This document shows positions 28,695 to 37,086 of a stretch of 64,000 bases of DNA, piece by piece. Source of the DNA: Wenzhouxiangella sediminis (GTDB lineage Bacteria > Pseudomonadota > Gammaproteobacteria > Xanthomonadales > Wenzhouxiangellaceae); contig NZ_QUZK01000048.1 in NCBI RefSeq assembly GCF_003410055.1, forward strand, positions 1-64,000. The letters run 5' to 3'. Numbering within the stretch: position 1 is the stretch's first letter; the number at the start of each line of letters is the position of its first letter. The notes beneath the pieces are model-generated. The model saw only the letters and a list, made by a program, of their open reading frames with translations, was not told the origin of the DNA and made no database searches. The position numbers were made by a program, and so were the translations under genes.

Positions 28695-31600
28695 TCAGAA
28701 CTGGCTGTTGAGCAGCTCGAAGCGGTCGGAGAAGATCAGGTCCGTCGGAGGCGGCGGGTCGCCCATCACCGGATCGTCGACCGGATCGGTCGGCTCCCAG
28801 AACCAGTCGAAGTTCTCGTCGGTGTACCAGACGCGGGCATAGCTCGCGTCCGACAGCGGATCGGGGAACGTCACTTCGGCAGTCGTGAACTGAGCCCAGG
28901 TCGAGTAGAGCGTGTCCCCGGCCGGACTCATCGTCAGGCTGGATTCTTCTGCGGAAACGTCCGAGCCGGTCGTGAGCCTTTCGAACTCGTTGCAGAAGAT
29001 TCCGCCGATGGTCGGTCCCGGCAGGCAGGTCTTCTCCATGTCGTGCTCGTCGGCCGTCACCTGGTAGTGATCACCGTAGCGAACGGCCCGCCCGAAGAAC
29101 AGGTCCAGCGCCTCGGCTTCGCCATCGACAACCGTCGTGTTGTCGCCGGTTTCGTAGACGACGAAGAACCGGGTCGGATTGAACTCGTCGGAGTCGTAGT
29201 CGTAGGAGCCGTCGCCCTCGGTGCCGATGGTCTTCATCGTCGGCGGATCCGGCGCATAGCGCGGATCGAGAATGGTGAACTTGTAAGTCGACGTACCGGT
29301 TTCCGAGCCCTGCAGCTGCGAGACGTTGCGCGCCTGCTCCGGTGCACCCGGCGGATAGTAGGTGCAGCGTTGGGTCGAATCCGGAGCCGTTGCGCCGTCG
29401 CGCATGAACTCGCAGGTCGTGGTGCCGATGCCGAACCCGCTTTCGTTCGATCCCCAGTCCGCGGGGGTGGTCGTCCAGGTCCGGCCGCCGTCGAATGAGC
29501 GGCGGATGTAGAGCTCGTAGCGATCGCTGCCGCTGGTATTGCGCTTCCAGTTGGGCGACCAGGCGTACATCACCACGACCATGTCGTTCCAGATGTAGCC
29601 GCGGTGGCCCTTGGCGACGTCCAGCGGGTTGTACCAGCTCTGGTCGTCCAGGTTACTGCCCAGCGCGACCGACTCGGGGAAGGTGCCGCACAGCGGGGAT
29701 CCCGGGCACTGCGCCCAGGTTTCCATCTTGTCGAAGACGGTCTGGTCGTCCGGGGTATCGCTGGCGATACCGCTCTCGTCGATGGTCGGACACACCCCGT
29801 CGCTGGCATCGTTGTCGCCGCCACCGCCGGTCGCGCAGTTCTCCGGCGTCACGCCCGAGAGATTGATCGCCGGGTCGTTGCAGATCCCCTTGGGATAGTA
29901 GGGATTCGAGTCGTCGATGTAGAGCCGCTCCGCGCAGACGAGGTTGTTGAAGTCGTACGGGTTGGCGGACGCCCCGGCGTCAACGATACGACGGGCCATG
30001 ATGTCGGCCGGACCGCCCTGCTGCATCAGACCCTGCTTGAACAGCGGCAGTGCCGTGAGGTTGCTGCCGGCTGCGTCTGCGCCCGAGCGGGGCTGCACCA
30101 GCAGGCTGCCTCGGCGGGCGATTTCGGTCCGGTAGAGGTCGAAGTTGTAATCGGTACCGCTGGTCACGCCGGTGAAGTCCCACATGTCCACGGTGCTCAT
30201 CCTCGGGAAGGTTTCGCCCGTGCGCCAATCGATCTCCGGCTGGTTGAGCATGTTGCCCTGGGCGACCAGGTTCTTGACCAGGCCGGTCTCGCTGAGATCC
30301 GAGCTGGTCTGCGGCTGCCCCATTTCGAAGGAGAAGTACCAGACGTTCTTGCCGATGTCGGCCGTTTCACAGTCGGCTTCACCCTCGTTGCAGGGAGTGG
30401 CGGTCTCGACGCCGGTCTCGCCGACCTTGAAGAAGAAGCGGCCCAGCCCCTTGCTTTCCTCTGCGATCACGACGACCCAGGCACCGATGGTGTTGCCGAG
30501 TTCGTCCGTGCGCGCCTGCAGGGAGACGCGGGGCCGGGTCGCTGCGGTATTGGCTACGTTGGGAAGCCCGTCCTCGCTGACGCAGACTTCGGTGGTGCCG
30601 CTGCCCTGCCCGGTCGGAATCACCACGGTGTCGACGCACTGGTTCTTGAGGCCGAAATCGAGCGCATCGGCGGTGCAGTACAGGGGGACACCGCCGGTGC
30701 CGTCGCCGCTGCCCGTGCAGCGGGCATTGTTGGTCATGCGCATGGGCACCGCAAAGGGAACGAAGGGCTTCGGCTTTTCGGTATTGGCGGGCCAGTAGGT
30801 CGGCAGGTCGACCGCCGTGCCCGTATCGTCAACGGTCTCGAAATGCGCATCCGGCAGGAAGCTGTACCAGATGTCGGTCTGATTGTTCGCGATGGCGCCG
30901 CTCCAGCCTTCGCCGGGGCCCTCCCCGGAACCGGGCAGCAGACCACCGGGATCCTCCTGCCAGGTGAGCACGACGCCCGCATCCTTGACGAAAGCGATTT
31001 CCACGCGATTGACGTCCCGGCGGCCGGAGGTCAGGCGCTCGGGCTTGTACCAGACCACGTGAAAGGCCTCCGTGGCATCACCGGTGCGGGGATCATCCCC
31101 TTCGACCAGCACGCCGCGAGCCGTCCACAGGCAGTGATACGGCACGACTCCGACCGTGGGATAGCCCTGGGCGTCGTAGTCGACCAGCCCCTGGGAGCCG
31201 GCGACTCCGAATACATCGGTCAGGTACAGATCGGCTGCAGGGTCGATACCCAATTCGGTCGCGACGGCGCTGAGTGTCGGCGTGGTGCCGTCATCGAGCG
31301 TGTATGCAGGCGATCCGGACGAGCAGTAGCGGCTCTGCCAGGCCACCGCGATATGCCGCCCGGCGACCGCGTGCACGATATTGGTGACATCACCGGGATA
31401 GGCGGGCACCGAGGTGGCGAATTCCGCCGCAGATTCGGACAGGTTGGTGGTCTTCCAGGTCTGGCCGTCGTCGAGGCTGATGCCGGCATAGGCGTCGCGC
31501 TTGCCCTTGCCGGTAAATCCGCCGGCATTCTCGTCGCCGACCGGCTCCGCGCCGGCCACCGCGCCGTAGAGAAAGGCGCTGACGACCGGCTTTGCCACCG

Positions 31601-31889
31601 TCCGGGTCTTGACCGTGGTCGCTTCGTCGTCGGTGGTGTAGGGCACGCTGCTGGCCGTCCCGTCGGAGGCCTGGGCGGGCACGTATTCCCTCAGGTACTT
31701 GACGAAAACGTGTTCCGCTTCCGGAGAATGCTGGACTCCGTCGATTTCGAGAAGCCCCGCATCCAGGGTGATGTTCTGGTTGATGTCGCGGTTGATCGAA
31801 TCGCCCGCCTGGGAAAACGCCGTCGACGGCGACAACGCGCCGACAATAGCGGTCACCAGGATCACGGCCGAAAACCTGGAATTGATCAT
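28695..31889 (-). CDS. Large secreted protein with neuraminidase-like repeats and IFSDRFE tail
   Basis: A 1064-residue exported protein of unknown function. The ATG at 31889 has a GGAGG site. The signal peptide is VILVTAIVGALSPSTAFSQA. Early sequence has GISLDDGQTWKTTNLSESA, and late sequence has YIRRSFDGGRTWTTTPADWG; both are Asp-box/BNR-like strands of sialidase-type propellers. Several Cys pairs suggest disulfides. The C-terminus is PPPPTDLIFSDRFELLNSQF, matching the short I-F-x-D-x-F-E endings seen on many exported Xanthomonadales proteins. It lies antisense within the rnf cluster, between rnfD and rnfG. Confidence 0.83.
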   Translation of the reverse strand: MINSRFSAVILVTAIVGALSPSTAFSQAGDSINRDINQNITLDAGLLEIDGVQHSPEAEHVFVKYLREYVPAQASDGTASSVPYTTDDEATTVKTRTVAKPVVSAFLYGAVAGAEPVGDENAGGFTGKGKRDAYAGISLDDGQTWKTTNLSESAAEFATSVPAYPGDVTNIVHAVAGRHIAVAWQSRYCSSGSPAYTLDDGTTPTLSAVATELGIDPAADLYLTDVFGVAGSQGLVDYDAQGYPTVGVVPYHCLWTARGVLVEGDDPRTGDATEAFHVVWYKPERLTSGRRDVNRVEIAFVKDAGVVLTWQEDPGGLLPGSGEGPGEGWSGAIANNQTDIWYSFLPDAHFETVDDTGTAVDLPTYWPANTEKPKPFVPFAVPMRMTNNARCTGSGDGTGGVPLYCTADALDFGLKNQCVDTVVIPTGQGSGTTEVCVSEDGLPNVANTAATRPRVSLQARTDELGNTIGAWVVVIAEESKGLGRFFFKVGETGVETATPCNEGEADCETADIGKNVWYFSFEMGQPQTSSDLSETGLVKNLVAQGNMLNQPEIDWRTGETFPRMSTVDMWDFTGVTSGTDYNFDLYRTEIARRGSLLVQPRSGADAAGSNLTALPLFKQGLMQQGGPADIMARRIVDAGASANPYDFNNLVCAERLYIDDSNPYYPKGICNDPAINLSGVTPENCATGGGGDNDASDGVCPTIDESGIASDTPDDQTVFDKMETWAQCPGSPLCGTFPESVALGSNLDDQSWYNPLDVAKGHRGYIWNDMVVVMYAWSPNWKRNTSGSDRYELYIRRSFDGGRTWTTTPADWGSNESGFGIGTTTCEFMRDGATAPDSTQRCTYYPPGAPEQARNVSQLQGSETGTSTYKFTILDPRYAPDPPTMKTIGTEGDGSYDYDSDEFNPTRFFVVYETGDNTTVVDGEAEALDLFFGRAVRYGDHYQVTADEHDMEKTCLPGPTIGGIFCNEFERLTTGSDVSAEESSLTMSPAGDTLYSTWAQFTTAEVTFPDPLSDASYARVWYTDENFDWFWEPTDPVDDPVMGDPPPPTDLIFSDRFELLNSQF

Positions 31890-32140
31890 TGAAAACCCTC
31901 CTGAGCGCCGGATGGCAAATAAAGTTTGATATCTCGGGTTTCGATGAAAGCTCGACGGCCGAAAAGCCCGCCGATCAAGCGCCTGCACCCATACAACTCT
32001 GGACTGGAAGTCTAGAATCCAGCCAAACCGAACCCGGTGACACAGATCAATAAATTCGCAACTTCTAATGATGCAGTGCACATCCGCATTCGTCGAGGCT
32101 TCCTTAGAATGGGGAGGGTGACTTTCGAGGTGGGCCTTTC

Positions 32141-32779: not shown

Positions 32780-33461
32780 CATCAATCGAATCTGGCGCGA
32801 CGGTCTCTGGGACAACAACCCCGGCCTCGTGCAGTTGCTCGGCCTCTGTCCATTGCTGGCGGTTTCCAACACGGCCGTCAGCGGCCTTGGGCTGGGACTG
32901 GCGACGCTGATCGTGCTGGTCGTCAGCAGCCTGCTGGTCTCTGCTCTGCGCCACACCTGGCGGCCGGAAACCCGCATTCCGGCCTTCGTACTGATCATCG
33001 CCTCGACCGTTACCGCCATCGACCTGTCGATGCAGGCCTGGCTGCACGAGCTCAGCCGCAGCCTGGGGATCTTCGTGCCGCTGATCGTCACCAACTGCAC
33101 CATCCTGGCCCGGGCCGAGGCCTTTGCTTCAAGGCAGCCGGTCGGCCCCAGTCTGGTGGACGCCCTCGCCCAGGGCACCGGTTTCGCCGCCGTCCTGGTG
33201 GTGCTCGGCGCCGGCCGCGAGGTTGTCGGTCGCGGCACATTGTTCGATGGAGCGGAAATGCTGTTCGGCGAATCGGCCGCGGGCTGGACCATCCCGGTTC
33301 TCCCCTTCGAGCAGGGCCTGCTCCTCGCCGTGCTTCCGCCGGGCGCTTTCATCGGCCTCGGCCTGCTGGTGGCCGCCAGGCAGCACCTGATCAATCGGTC
33401 GCGGGAAGCCGGCGTAAAATCCCGCCCTGCCCCATCGACCGCCGAGCCGACCACACCATGA
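32772..33461 (+). CDS. rnfE: Rnf electron transport complex subunit E
   Basis: A 229-residue membrane subunit paralogous to RnfA. Characteristic segments are GLWDNNPGLVQLLGLCPLLAVSNTAVSGLGLG and SLGIFVPLIVTNCTILARAEAFA, each with the conserved Cys thought to ligate the membrane Fe-S centre. Six helices are predicted. The stop overlaps the nth ATG (ATGA), keeping the rnf-nth linkage of gammaproteobacteria. Confidence 0.95.
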   Translation: MTDINRIWRDGLWDNNPGLVQLLGLCPLLAVSNTAVSGLGLGLATLIVLVVSSLLVSALRHTWRPETRIPAFVLIIASTVTAIDLSMQAWLHELSRSLGIFVPLIVTNCTILARAEAFASRQPVGPSLVDALAQGTGFAAVLVVLGAGREVVGRGTLFDGAEMLFGESAAGWTIPVLPFEQGLLLAVLPPGAFIGLGLLVAARQHLINRSREAGVKSRPAPSTAEPTTP

Positions 33462-34120
33462 ACAAGACCAACCGCGAGGAATTCTTTCGCCGGCTTCGGG
33501 AACTCGACCCCCACCCGACGACTGAACTGGAATACGAAACGCCCTTCGAGTTGCTGGTGGCCGTCATCCTCTCCGCCCAGGCCACGGACGTTGGTGTGAA
33601 CAAAGCCACCCGACGCCTGTTCCCGGTCGCCAACACGCCGCAGAAGATTCTCGAACTGGGCGAGGACGGCCTGAAGGACTACATCAAGACCATCGGCCTG
33701 TTCAATTCAAAGGCGAAGAACATCATCAAGACCTGCCGCGACCTGGTGGACAAGCACGACGGCGTGGTGCCGGACGACCGGGCCGAGCTCGAGGCGCTTG
33801 CCGGCGTGGGCCGCAAGACCGCCAACGTGGTGCTCAACACCGCCTTCGGCCAGCCGACAATGGCGGTCGACACGCACATCTTCCGGGTCGCCAACCGCAC
33901 CGGGCTGGCTCCGGGCAAGACGCCCCTGGCGGTGGAGAAGGCCCTGCTCAAGCGCGTCCCCGAAGCCTATCTGAAAGATGCCCATCACTGGCTGATCCTG
34001 CACGGCCGCTACACCTGCAAGGCGCGCAAGCCGCTGTGCGGTCAATGTCCAGTCTACGACCTGTGCCGATGGCGCCAGAAAGGACGGTATTTCGAAGAAA
34101 CGCAGCCGGTGGGCAGCTGA
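33458..34120 (+). CDS. nth: Endonuclease III (DNA glycosylase/AP lyase)
   Basis: A 220-residue base-excision repair enzyme for oxidised pyrimidines. The helix-hairpin-helix ALAGVGRKTANVVL holds the catalytic Lys120, and VDTHIFRVANR holds Asp138. The [4Fe-4S] ligands C187, C194, C197 and C203 fall at the same residue numbers as in E. coli. It overlaps rnfE by 4 bases. Confidence 0.97.
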   Translation: MNKTNREEFFRRLRELDPHPTTELEYETPFELLVAVILSAQATDVGVNKATRRLFPVANTPQKILELGEDGLKDYIKTIGLFNSKAKNIIKTCRDLVDKHDGVVPDDRAELEALAGVGRKTANVVLNTAFGQPTMAVDTHIFRVANRTGLAPGKTPLAVEKALLKRVPEAYLKDAHHWLILHGRYTCKARKPLCGQCPVYDLCRWRQKGRYFEETQPVGS

Positions 34121-34126
34121 CTTCGA

Positions 34127-34198
34127 TAGGTGAGTCCACCTAGCAAATATTTAACGGTGAAGTGCTAGAGTATTGACGAACATCAAGTTTCGATGTTC
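34127..34198 (+). promoter_or_regulatory. Upstream region of hvfA with two inverted repeats
   Basis: A 6-base stem with AGTC loop (34127-34142) is followed by an AT-rich stretch. A 7-base inverted repeat GAACATC/GATGTTC (34178-34198) lies 30 bases before the hvfA ATG. A TTGACG (34173-34178) could be a -35. The second repeat could be an operator or leader hairpin. Related operons elsewhere are copper-induced through ECF sigma factors. No sigma or anti-sigma gene is present here. Confidence 0.4.
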
Positions 34199-34228
34199 TC
34201 TCTTATTGCATCCGTGGAGGAACCCGTC

Positions 34229-34567
34229 ATGTCCGACAAGAAATACCTGTTGACCGCGATCAGCACCGTTGCCGCCGCTTCGTTTTCCCTGAGCGCGCTG
34301 GCTTCCCAGGACGCCAGCATCGATCCCTTCCAGGCCGAAGACCTGCCGGCCGGCTTCCAGGTCTCCGCCGACGACCACAAGGACGGCGAAGGCAAGTGCG
34401 GTGAAGGCAACTGCGGCGAAGACAAGGACAAGGATGAAGAAGGCAGTTGCGGCGAAGGCAGCTGCGGTGAAGGGGACAGCGACGACGAACACCATGACGA
34501 CGACAAGGACGAGGAAGGCAGCTGCGGCGAGGGATCCTGCGGTGAAGGGTCCTGCGGCAGCGCCTGA
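34229..34567 (+). CDS. hvfA: HvfA-type RiPP metallophore precursor
   Basis: A 112-residue exported precursor peptide. The ATG at 34229 has a GGAGG site 8 bases upstream. A signal peptide (AISTVAAASFSLSALAS, cleavage near residue 26) leads to an acidic spacer and three blocks of EGxCGEGxCG repeats. The seven cysteines are 57, 62, 74, 79, 99, 104 and 109, spaced by five within each block. Blocks are separated by Asp/Glu/His/Lys-rich linkers (e.g. DSDDEHHDDDKDE). In the known HvfA/HvfBC system of Haemophilus, Cys in EGKCGEG motifs become oxazolone-thioamide pairs that bind copper. Modification here is inferred from hvfB and hvfC next door. Confidence 0.88.
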   Translation: MSDKKYLLTAISTVAAASFSLSALASQDASIDPFQAEDLPAGFQVSADDHKDGEGKCGEGNCGEDKDKDEEGSCGEGSCGEGDSDDEHHDDDKDEEGSCGEGSCGEGSCGSA

Positions 34568-34579
34568 ATCGACTGACCG

Positions 34580-35437
34580 ATGCCGCAAGCATCGACCTTC
34601 GATCTGAGCGGGGCCGGGCTGGGCCTCAGACGAGGCCTGCTCGAACCGCTTCGTGAAGCCGATCTCTCCGAGGTCGGCTTCATGGAAGTTGCCCCCGAAA
34701 ACTGGATCGGCGTCGGCGGCCGCCTCGGCCGCCGCTTCGCCGAATACACCGAGCGTTTCCCCTTCGTCTGCCACGGCCTGTCGCTTTCGCTCGGCGCTCC
34801 CGAACCGCTCGATCGCGGCTTTCTGGAGCGCGTCCGCCGCTTTCTCGACCGGCACGACATCCGCGGCTATTCGGAACATCTGAGCTACTGTTCCGAGCAC
34901 GGCCACCTCTACGACCTGATGCCCATCCCGTTCACGGAGGAAGCCGTCGACTGGGTCGCCTCGCGCATTCGCGAAACACAGGACATCGTCGGACGCCGAA
35001 TCGCGGTCGAGAATATTTCCTACTACACGACCGTGGGTGCGGAGATGAGCGAACTGGAGTTCATCAACGCCGTGCTCGAGCGGGCCGACTGCCAGCTGCT
35101 GCTCGACGTCAACAACATCTACGTCAACAGCGTCAACCACCGCTACGACCCCCACGAATTTCTCGCCGGCCTGCCCGCCGAGCGCGTCGCCTACATCCAC
35201 GTCGCCGGCCACCACGACGAGGCCGAGGACCTGATCATCGACACCCACGGTGCGCCGGTGATCGACCCGGTCTGGCAGCTCCTGGCCGAGGCCTACCGGC
35301 GACTGGGCGCCGTGCCGACCCTGCTCGAGCGCGACTTCAACTTCCCGCCGGTCGGGGAATTGCTGGCCGAAGTCTCGCAGATCCGCCGATTCCAGGACGA
35401 TCATGCCCCCGCAGCGCGACAGCAATTCGCCTCCTGA
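34580..35437 (+). CDS. hvfB: DUF692 multinuclear iron enzyme (MNIO), HvfB type
   Basis: A 285-residue TIM-barrel MNIO enzyme, related to MbnB, that oxidatively converts precursor cysteines into oxazolone-thioamide (or related) groups. Likely metal ligands fall in [61 protein letters not shown] and [10 protein letters not shown], all intact. It begins 12 bases after hvfA and overlaps hvfC by 35 bases, so translation is probably coupled. Confidence 0.93.
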
Positions 35438-36185
35438 GAGCCTGCTCGCCCTGCAGCGGCAGTTTGCGGGCCATCTCCGCGATCCGGCCCGCGTGGCGGC
35501 GCCCGAAGGCCTCGAGGAGCGACGACTCGCGATCTACCGCCGCTTGTTCTTCGGCAACCTCAACAACCTGTTCTCGAAGAATTTCCCGGTGCTCTACAAG
35601 CTGGTCGACCGCGAGCGCTGGCAGTCGCTGATTCGCGAGTTCATGGTCGATCATCGCTCGACCACCCCGATGTTCACCGAGATCGGGCGGGAATTCGTAC
35701 GCTTTCTCGAGGAACGACAGTCCGACGGTCTGCCGGCCTTCGCGCTGGAGTTGGCTCACTGGGAGTTTCTCGAGACCCGCGTGCGGCTGGCCGAAGCCGA
35801 CCCCGGCGCGGTTGCCTGCGACACCGCTGGGGACCTTCTGGCCGCCCGGATCGCCCTCAACCCCACCTTGCGCCTGGCGCAGTACAGCTGGCCGGTTCAC
35901 GAGATCTCACCCGGGAACCGGCCTGAAACGCCGCTCGAGCAGCCGCTGATCCTGGCCGCCTGGCGCAAGTTCGACGATCGCCTCGGTTTCATGAAGCTCA
36001 ACGCCGTCACCGCGCGACTTCTGGAGCTCATCGATCGGCAGCCCGAGCTGGCCGGACGGGCGGTACTGGAGAGAATCGCCGAGGAGATGCGTGCGCCGGA
36101 CCCGGCGACCATCGTGCAGTCCGGAGCGACCATGCTCGAGCGTCTGCGCGACCGGGGGATCGTGCTCGGCACCCTGCCTCAGTAG
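35403..36185 (+). CDS. hvfC: DUF2063 precursor-binding partner protein, HvfC type
   Basis: A 260-residue partner of the MNIO enzyme. The N-terminal DUF2063 domain ([59 protein letters not shown]) is typical. The C-terminal part is RRE-like and is thought to present the precursor to HvfB. It starts 35 bases inside hvfB. Its end overlaps the convergent TraB/GumN gene by 7 bases. The DoxX gene (hvfD) that often ends such operons is missing. Confidence 0.9.
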
Positions 36186-37054
36186 ATTTCCTCGACCTTC
36201 CAGCCGCGGTTCCGCAGCAGTGCGACCAGCCCATCGGGCCCGTGCAGGTGCAGCGCACCGACGGCGATGATCAGCCCGCCTTCGGCCAACCAGGGTTCCG
36301 CCCGCTCGAGCATGCGGTGATTGCGCGCATCGAGGCCCTGCTCGTCGAAATAGCGCCCGATGTGCTCTTCCAGGCCGGCCATCTGCTCTTCAGCTACTGC
36401 GTCCAGTCGATCCAGGTCACCGTCCACGTAGGCCGACACGAGCTCGTCGAAGACGGCCTCGTAGGCGTCGTGATCGGCGACCGTCGCCCGAATCAGGCTG
36501 ACCTGGTCATCGAGCGGCATGCCGGCAAGGAAATCGACTTGTTCGTCGATGGTCTCCAGCGCGACCACCTCCAGACCCGCACCCTGCGCCCGGTAGGAGA
36601 GCATCAGGTCCATGTACATGCCCGTCTCGGGCGGCCGGGTCGCCAGGGTCAGGGCCACGGCCCAGGGCTTCATGCGGTTGACGGCCGGCTCCGTCATTCC
36701 GTATTTCTCGGTCAGCACGCTCACCACCCAATCATGAAGCGCCGGCTCCAGCACCTCGTCGAGCGATTGTTCGCTCGAAACCATTGCCTGCCGCAGTCGC
36801 TCGAGCATGCCGGCGTCCGGCACCAGTTCCAGCGCGATCCGGTCGGCCCGGGTCAGCGCGTCCACCAGCGGGGCCGGCCACTCCAGGAGGCGCGGATCTT
36901 CGCTGTGCATGGTGCCCAGCAACCAGTTCTGTCGACCGGCCTCGTCGGTGACCGACCAGAAAACCGCCGCGAAAGCCAGGCTCGGCAGCAGCGCGAGCGC
37001 GAACACGACGCCGCGGGCCCATGAACGCCGGTGGTCAAACCGGTGACGGTGCAT
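36179..37054 (-). CDS. TraB/GumN family protein
   Basis: A 291-residue exported protein with an N-terminal signal segment ([15 protein letters not shown]) and one TraB/GumN domain. The family's metalloprotease-like motifs are present: [12 protein letters not shown] near the N-terminus, [15 protein letters not shown], and the C-terminal [27 protein letters not shown]. The bacterial function is not settled; distant relatives (Tiki) are proteases. The ATG at 37054 follows an AGGATA site. Confidence 0.88.
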
Positions 37055-37086
37055 TATCCTGCCTCTTTTGCCCATTCGCGTTCTTC

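Follow-up and report, generated by a model that had tools for sequence, protein, structure and literature searches.

The locus and the question it raises

The hvfABC operon of this Wenzhouxiangella genome raises the question of whether a precursor that has lost most of the lysines standing before its motif cysteines can still be matured into a copper-binding product. The operon is real and correctly placed: in the 64,000-nucleotide stretch of DNA analysed (the window), its coordinates, reading frames and plus-strand gene order (precursor, MNIO, partner) are as a preliminary description had given them, with a 12-nt gap between hvfA and hvfB and a 35-nt overlap between hvfB and hvfC. The genes and the parts of the precursor are as follows.

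33458-34120, plus strand: nth (endonuclease III), upstream neighbour
34229-34567, plus strand: hvfA, precursor of 112 aa with seven EGxCG motifs (NF050137, orthologues, codon comparison)
34328-34357, plus strand: leader element FQAEDLPAGF of HvfA, after the signal peptide (conservation)
34388-34420, plus strand: HvfA block 1, EGKCGEGNCGE
34439-34474, plus strand: HvfA block 2, EGSCGEGSCGEG, core EGSCGEGSCG
34514-34558, plus strand: HvfA block 3, EGSCGEGSCGEGSCG, with three Cys
34580-35437, plus strand: hvfB, MNIO (DUF692) maturase of 285 aa (NF003818, PF05114, alignment to 3BWW, residue invariance)
35403-36185, plus strand: hvfC, DUF2063 / NGO1945_C partner with a PqqD-like (RRE) C-terminus (NF050145, Pfam, match to 3DEE)
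36179-37075, strand opposite to hvfABC: TraB/gumN-family gene, downstream neighbour

Because the TraB/gumN-family gene is on the opposite strand, the operon ends at hvfC. HvfB matches PF05114 (E 3.9e-106) and the NCBIfam HvfB family NF003818 (441.7 bits, cut-off 360), aligns to structure 3BWW, and retains R17/R18, D252-F253 and the His, Asp, Glu and Asn positions conserved in the family; it scores under the cut-off for the bufferin maturase BufB (NF050167; 274.2 vs 310 bits). HvfC matches NCBIfam NF050145 (276.2 bits, cut-off 142), PF09836 (DUF2063), PF22106 (NGO1945_C) and structure 3DEE. The order described previously, a DUF692 MNIO and a DUF2063 partner after the precursor, is thus borne out, and these NCBIfam, Pfam and structural matches support the prediction of an HvfABC-type copper-binding RiPP pathway. 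Genome-wide, HvfB is the sole PF05114 protein in 3.5 Mb and HvfA the sole KCGExKCG_twice match. The nearest named genome is that of Wenzhouxiangella sp. 15190 (HvfB identity 92%); HvfB occurs in 32 of 43 Wenzhouxiangellaceae genomes with a precursor upstream, and nearly all relatives for which upstream sequence was examined carry the same kind of repeat precursor before the MNIO gene.

The precursor

The hvfA frame starts with ATG at 34229, preceded by GGAGG at 34216-34220. By eye, its N-terminus MSDKKYLLTAISTVAAASFSLSALAS reads as a Sec-type signal peptide, and a signal-like arrangement of MSDKK, a hydrophobic stretch and ALAS is seen in HvfA and its relatives. The leader that follows, DPFQAEDLPAGFQ, includes an F-x4-L-x2-G-[YF] element that recurs across bacterial families in most of the precursors compared and is a candidate site for recognition by the partner protein HvfC (through its RRE). 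The same element was also found in precursors containing EF hands.

As the preliminary description had it, HvfA has seven Cys in three blocks (2+2+3), the third with three Cys, and the Lys before Cys (position 3 of the motif) is mostly replaced: the blocks read K,N, then S,S, then S,S,S, for totals of one K, one N and five S. Since its score against NCBIfam NF050137 (E 1.3e-12, 47.2 bits over two stretches) exceeds the cut-off of 19.5, HvfA is not a chance low-complexity frame. It falls below the cut-off of the HvfA equivalog NF050188 (40.8 vs 95 bits) and had no Pfam match, DUF2282 included. Repeated Lys-Cys 5-mers are lacking, with Lys in one of seven motifs, so HvfA is atypical for the "Lys-Cys" (EGKCG) subgroup.

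Compared with its closest relative (94% identical in HvfB), hvfA differs synonymously at 19 codons and non-synonymously at 2, both of these outside the motifs, a ratio that indicates purifying selection on hvfA. AGY and TCC Ser codons are both used at position 3 within the gene, block 3 included, and for this reason the repeats look maintained at the protein level, unlike a recent DNA duplication. The linkers had been called Asp/His-rich; they are rich in Asp, Glu and Lys (family median net charge -0.47 per residue), and His is not conserved in the closest relatives, the one linker with two adjacent His here having a single His in the nearest relative and lacking His in another (L004).

Comparison with characterised systems

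Captophorin is the class name covering oxazolin, gonophorin and fontiphorin, and most MNIO genes lie in captophorin-type clusters (PMC12668002). The locus has the marks of the captophorin / Buf_EGKCG-oxazolin (MNIO-PME1) class: an HvfB-family MNIO, an adjoining RRE-like HvfC partner (PME1) and a Cys-rich precursor upstream. The pathway had been likened to one making oxazolone-thioamide pairs, an assignment now outdated, as oxazolin and gonophorin carry 5-thiooxazole (PMC12668002) and the Haemophilus group accepts the reassignment, with a mixed-valent diiron cofactor (PMC13419390).

Nor is a three-block precursor unusual. Fontiphorin, from fonABC of Fontimonas thermophila, has seven 5-thiooxazoles on three repeat blocks with Cys arranged 2+3+2, and its cluster, like hvfABC, is a minimal precursor-MNIO-DUF2063 set without DoxX (PMC12668002). 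FonA and HvfA share the seven Cys, the three blocks of tandem 5-mers and the same enzyme families; they differ in that FonA repeats Lys before Cys (E[AG]KCG) where HvfA has K, N or S, and in that three Cys fall in the middle block of FonA but in the last block of HvfA (PMC12668002). Oxazolin, from hvfABCX of nontypeable Haemophilus influenzae, shares the NCBIfam HvfB and HvfC equivalogs and a precursor of exported type carrying three paired motifs, but its six Cys are all in AEGKCGEGKCG, and its cluster includes hvfX whereas the Wenzhouxiangella cluster does not (PMC13419390). Another such product, bulbicupramide, has 5-8 Cys and comes from mmrABC of the marine genus Microbulbifer; its ABC cluster, repeated 5-mers and conserved leader resemble those here, as does Cu(I) binding, predicted here from the genes, but it belongs to another genus and its motif, EGKCG, has Lys (PMC12538549). 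Bufferin 1 of Caulobacter is similar in its MNIO and DUF2063 partner and in its exported precursor, thiooxazole and association with copper, which are predicted for hvfABC; hvfABC does not match its DUF2282 precursor with four conserved Cys or the ECF sigma/NrsF genes of many of its clusters (PMC12452194).

HvfX is DoxX-like (NCBIfam NF050144). Queries with PF07681, NF050144 and a relative's HvfX found no HvfX/DoxX in the cluster or anywhere in the genome (99.8% complete), so the absence noted at the locus holds genome-wide. However, in 17 Wenzhouxiangellaceae genomes hvfX follows downstream of hvfB in the same orientation, and in three near relatives (G016, G034 and G035) it is located elsewhere or on another contig. 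Because most relatives carry it downstream, its absence here is best explained by a loss within the lineage; as DoxX content varies within the family, we rejected the proposal that this absence defines a different system. EGKCG-type clusters combine precursor, MNIO, DUF2063 and DoxX genes in varying ways, and sigma-factor genes are carried by Buf1 clusters (PMC12452194), so that the lack of an ECF sigma gene is no mark of a variant either. Since published clusters vary likewise, block number, Cys number and a missing DoxX or sigma gene are not distinctive. In one relative (locus L008, genome G036), read on the minus strand, hvfX directly follows hvfB by coordinates, and hvfC was not found on the minus strand of the stretch examined, which points to another gene order or to a partner gene located elsewhere.

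Loss of the motif lysine in Wenzhouxiangellaceae

We collected precursors as frames before HvfB-type genes from the family, the order and a scan of named genomes, using a motif pattern that left position 3 free; the survey describes recognised precursors, and other motifs may occur at the loci that yielded no precursor, some of which lie at contig ends. Outside Wenzhouxiangellaceae, Lys occupies position 3 in 699 of 724 paired motifs (96.5%) from 130 non-redundant precursors, none of which is without Lys in all its paired motifs. Among 33 precursors of the family the figure is 16 of 246 paired motifs; Ser (111), Ala (90), Thr (13) and Asn (11) are found there, and 24 of the 33 precursors are free of Lys motifs. 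One member, L020, has kept a Lys-rich precursor (5 K, 2 R, 1 N). The alignment across homologues thus shows the replacement of Lys by Ser or Asn to be real and clade-wide. A search of the literature for EGSCG and EGNCG motifs returned unrelated sequence matches only, and by these alignments the Lys-poor motif is a clade-wide feature of the predicted Wenzhouxiangellaceae captophorins that we did not find described in the captophorin literature surveyed. Of the grounds on which the operon had been called a distinct variant, this one stands, and the His-rich linkers and the absence of DoxX and sigma genes do not.

On a quick HvfB tree, Wenzhouxiangellaceae split into two groups. A single group was not rejected (p-AU 0.63), so one origin of the Lys loss is possible, and with that constraint acceptable we dropped the proposal of two independent losses.

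Among 292 isolated EGxCG motifs outside the family, Ser (133) and Lys (130) are about equally common, whereas paired motifs nearly always have Lys; this pattern, seen in many Gammaproteobacteria, too, we did not find described in the captophorin literature surveyed.

Residues of the maturase

R17, R18, D252 and F253 do not vary among the 108 enzymes compared, whether the precursor has lost or kept its Lys. Matched by motif context, they appear to correspond to Arg15, Arg16, Asp249 and Phe250 of FonB. From the description of FonB we take all four to face the substrate at motif position 3, D252 being the catalytic Asp with F253 next to it. By this match HvfB has the Arg-Arg and Asp-Phe pairs that characterise the MNIO of the Lys-Cys subgroup of captophorins. 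Among the same 108 enzymes we found no substitution common to both Lys-free groups. Four residues of HvfB (A73, E106, W125 and I146) mark the Wenzhouxiangella group; they are present in Lys-rich L020 as well, so these sites follow ancestry and not the motif, and the second Lys-free group does not share them. The comparison thus revealed no enzyme change that goes with the loss of Lys. The genes, their families and conservation, the clade-wide loss of Lys and the invariant enzyme residues are directly established.

When FonBC was given position-3 variants, Ala, Arg and Thr were processed and Phe and Glu impaired processing (PMC12668002); Ser and Asn are not among the variants in the part of that published set that we surveyed. 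Given the invariant substrate-facing residues and this tolerance of Ala, Thr and Arg, motifs with Ser, Asn or Ala would be expected to be modified. Some non-cognate substrates were modified by FonBC at one of two sites (PMC12668002), and full modification of all seven Cys is therefore not assured. The Lys-poor HvfA most likely still undergoes modification at the majority, if not all, of its seven Cys and sequesters Cu(I).

Interpretation

We consider it highly probable that hvfABC makes a captophorin, in which Cys are converted to 5-thiooxazoles and which is exported and sequesters Cu(I) despite the loss of Lys. In this account, HvfC would bind the HvfA leader and present it to HvfB, which, as a mixed-valent diiron MNIO, would convert motif Cys to 5-thiooxazoles one after another with the loss of four H per Cys; the modified, acidic HvfA would leave through Sec and sequester Cu(I) in the cell envelope against copper stress. 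The residue before Cys would have shifted in Wenzhouxiangellaceae from Lys to Ser, Ala, Thr or Asn, with enzyme tolerance probable because the enzyme relies on Cys, the small residue after it and the motif Glu over the Lys side chain. The chemistry, the number of modified Cys, copper binding, export and role are here inferred from the characterised relatives, through the published chemistry of FonBC, HvfBC, NgoBC and bulbicupramide (PMC12668002, PMC13419390, PMC12538549). Apart from its motif, hvfABC is unexceptional within a widespread copper-stress system.

The extent of modification is where the nearest competing account departs from this one: Cys behind Lys or in the first block would become 5-thiooxazoles and many Ser-preceded Cys would stay free thiols, giving a mixed chelator. 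The contrast between paired motifs (96.5% Lys) and isolated ones (133 Ser vs 130 Lys) means that the two motif contexts are not equivalent, which speaks for such an outcome, as do the FonBC substrates modified at one of two sites (PMC12668002). However, the 24 of 33 family precursors without a Lys motif retain the operon, and FonBC processes Ala and Thr at position 3 (PMC12668002), so we regard partial modification as unlikely. The cause of the motif change is a separate matter, and there a reading compatible with captophorin production holds that Lys was lost as a by-product of acidification in a salt-tolerant lineage, irrelevant to modification. Linkers are indeed more acidic in Wenzhouxiangellaceae (median charge -0.47 per residue vs +0.05 elsewhere) and poorer in Lys (0.13 vs 0.24), yet motif Lys drops about 15-fold and linker Lys about twofold, and in 12 precursors from elsewhere whose linkers are also acidic, 62 of the 73 paired motifs retain Lys, one precursor (L056) accounting for 8 of the 11 that do not. 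Acidification as the lone cause is thereby weakened, although it may have contributed; we hold this reading possible, if somewhat doubtful.

Two further readings would set the operon apart altogether. Were the changed residue to bring a different modification or another metal, the Wenzhouxiangellaceae operon would be functionally distinct, as the near-completeness of the clade-wide change and the absence from this genome of HvfX, which is linked to copper RiPP maturation, might suggest; but the catalytic and substrate-facing residues are unaltered, it is the backbone carbonyl of the preceding residue, not the side chain, that supplies the thiooxazole oxygen (PMC12668002), and many relatives with Lys-free precursors have hvfX beside the operon, which makes this improbable. 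That the operon is decaying, its repeats degenerate and unmodified, could be read from the loss of both hvfX and motif Lys, but is contradicted by the 19:2 ratio of synonymous to non-synonymous codon differences, both non-synonymous ones falling outside the motifs, and by three intact frames with conserved motif Cys and Gly; we give it hardly any weight.

More speculatively, the Wenzhouxiangellaceae captophorin may be Lys-poor or Lys-free and polyanionic, with thiooxazoles behind Ser or Ala and with copper binding or aggregation unlike that of characterised members, a proposal we find rather unlikely. If it is true, Lys would be dispensable for the enzyme and selected elsewhere for charge, protease cutting or the metal network. 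A family that dropped Lys with its enzyme residues unchanged is a natural experiment: set against fontiphorin, its product would separate the needs of the enzyme from those of the copper-binding product.

The 5' region of hvfA and a neighbouring frame

Two elements conserved among relatives precede hvfA.

34163-34171, plus strand: TGCTAGAGT, extended -10-like element (invariant alignment columns in nine relatives)
34178-34198, plus strand: inverted repeat GAACATC-N7-GATGTTC, a short way after the -10-like element (arms covary in relatives)

Across the window and the nine aligned relatives (L003-L007 and L009-L012) the first reads TGCTAGAGT or TGCTAGGAT, with TTTAAC upstream of it in most of the relatives; we interpret it as a putative promoter, and a consensus scan upstream of hvfA returned no sigma-70 sites. 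In the same sequences the arms of the inverted repeat change together, from GC to AU at two pairs, and pairing holds in 91.7% of cells, against 26.7-48.3% when the arms are slid. A hairpin in the 5' UTR and an operator are both conceivable roles for the repeat, whose compensatory changes may represent one event.

Elsewhere in the window, the minus strand at 28695-32081 encodes a long predicted protein (1128 aa) that matched nothing in Pfam at E 1e-4; a signal-like stretch follows its extended start, and its C-terminus reads ...DLIFSDRFELLNSQF.
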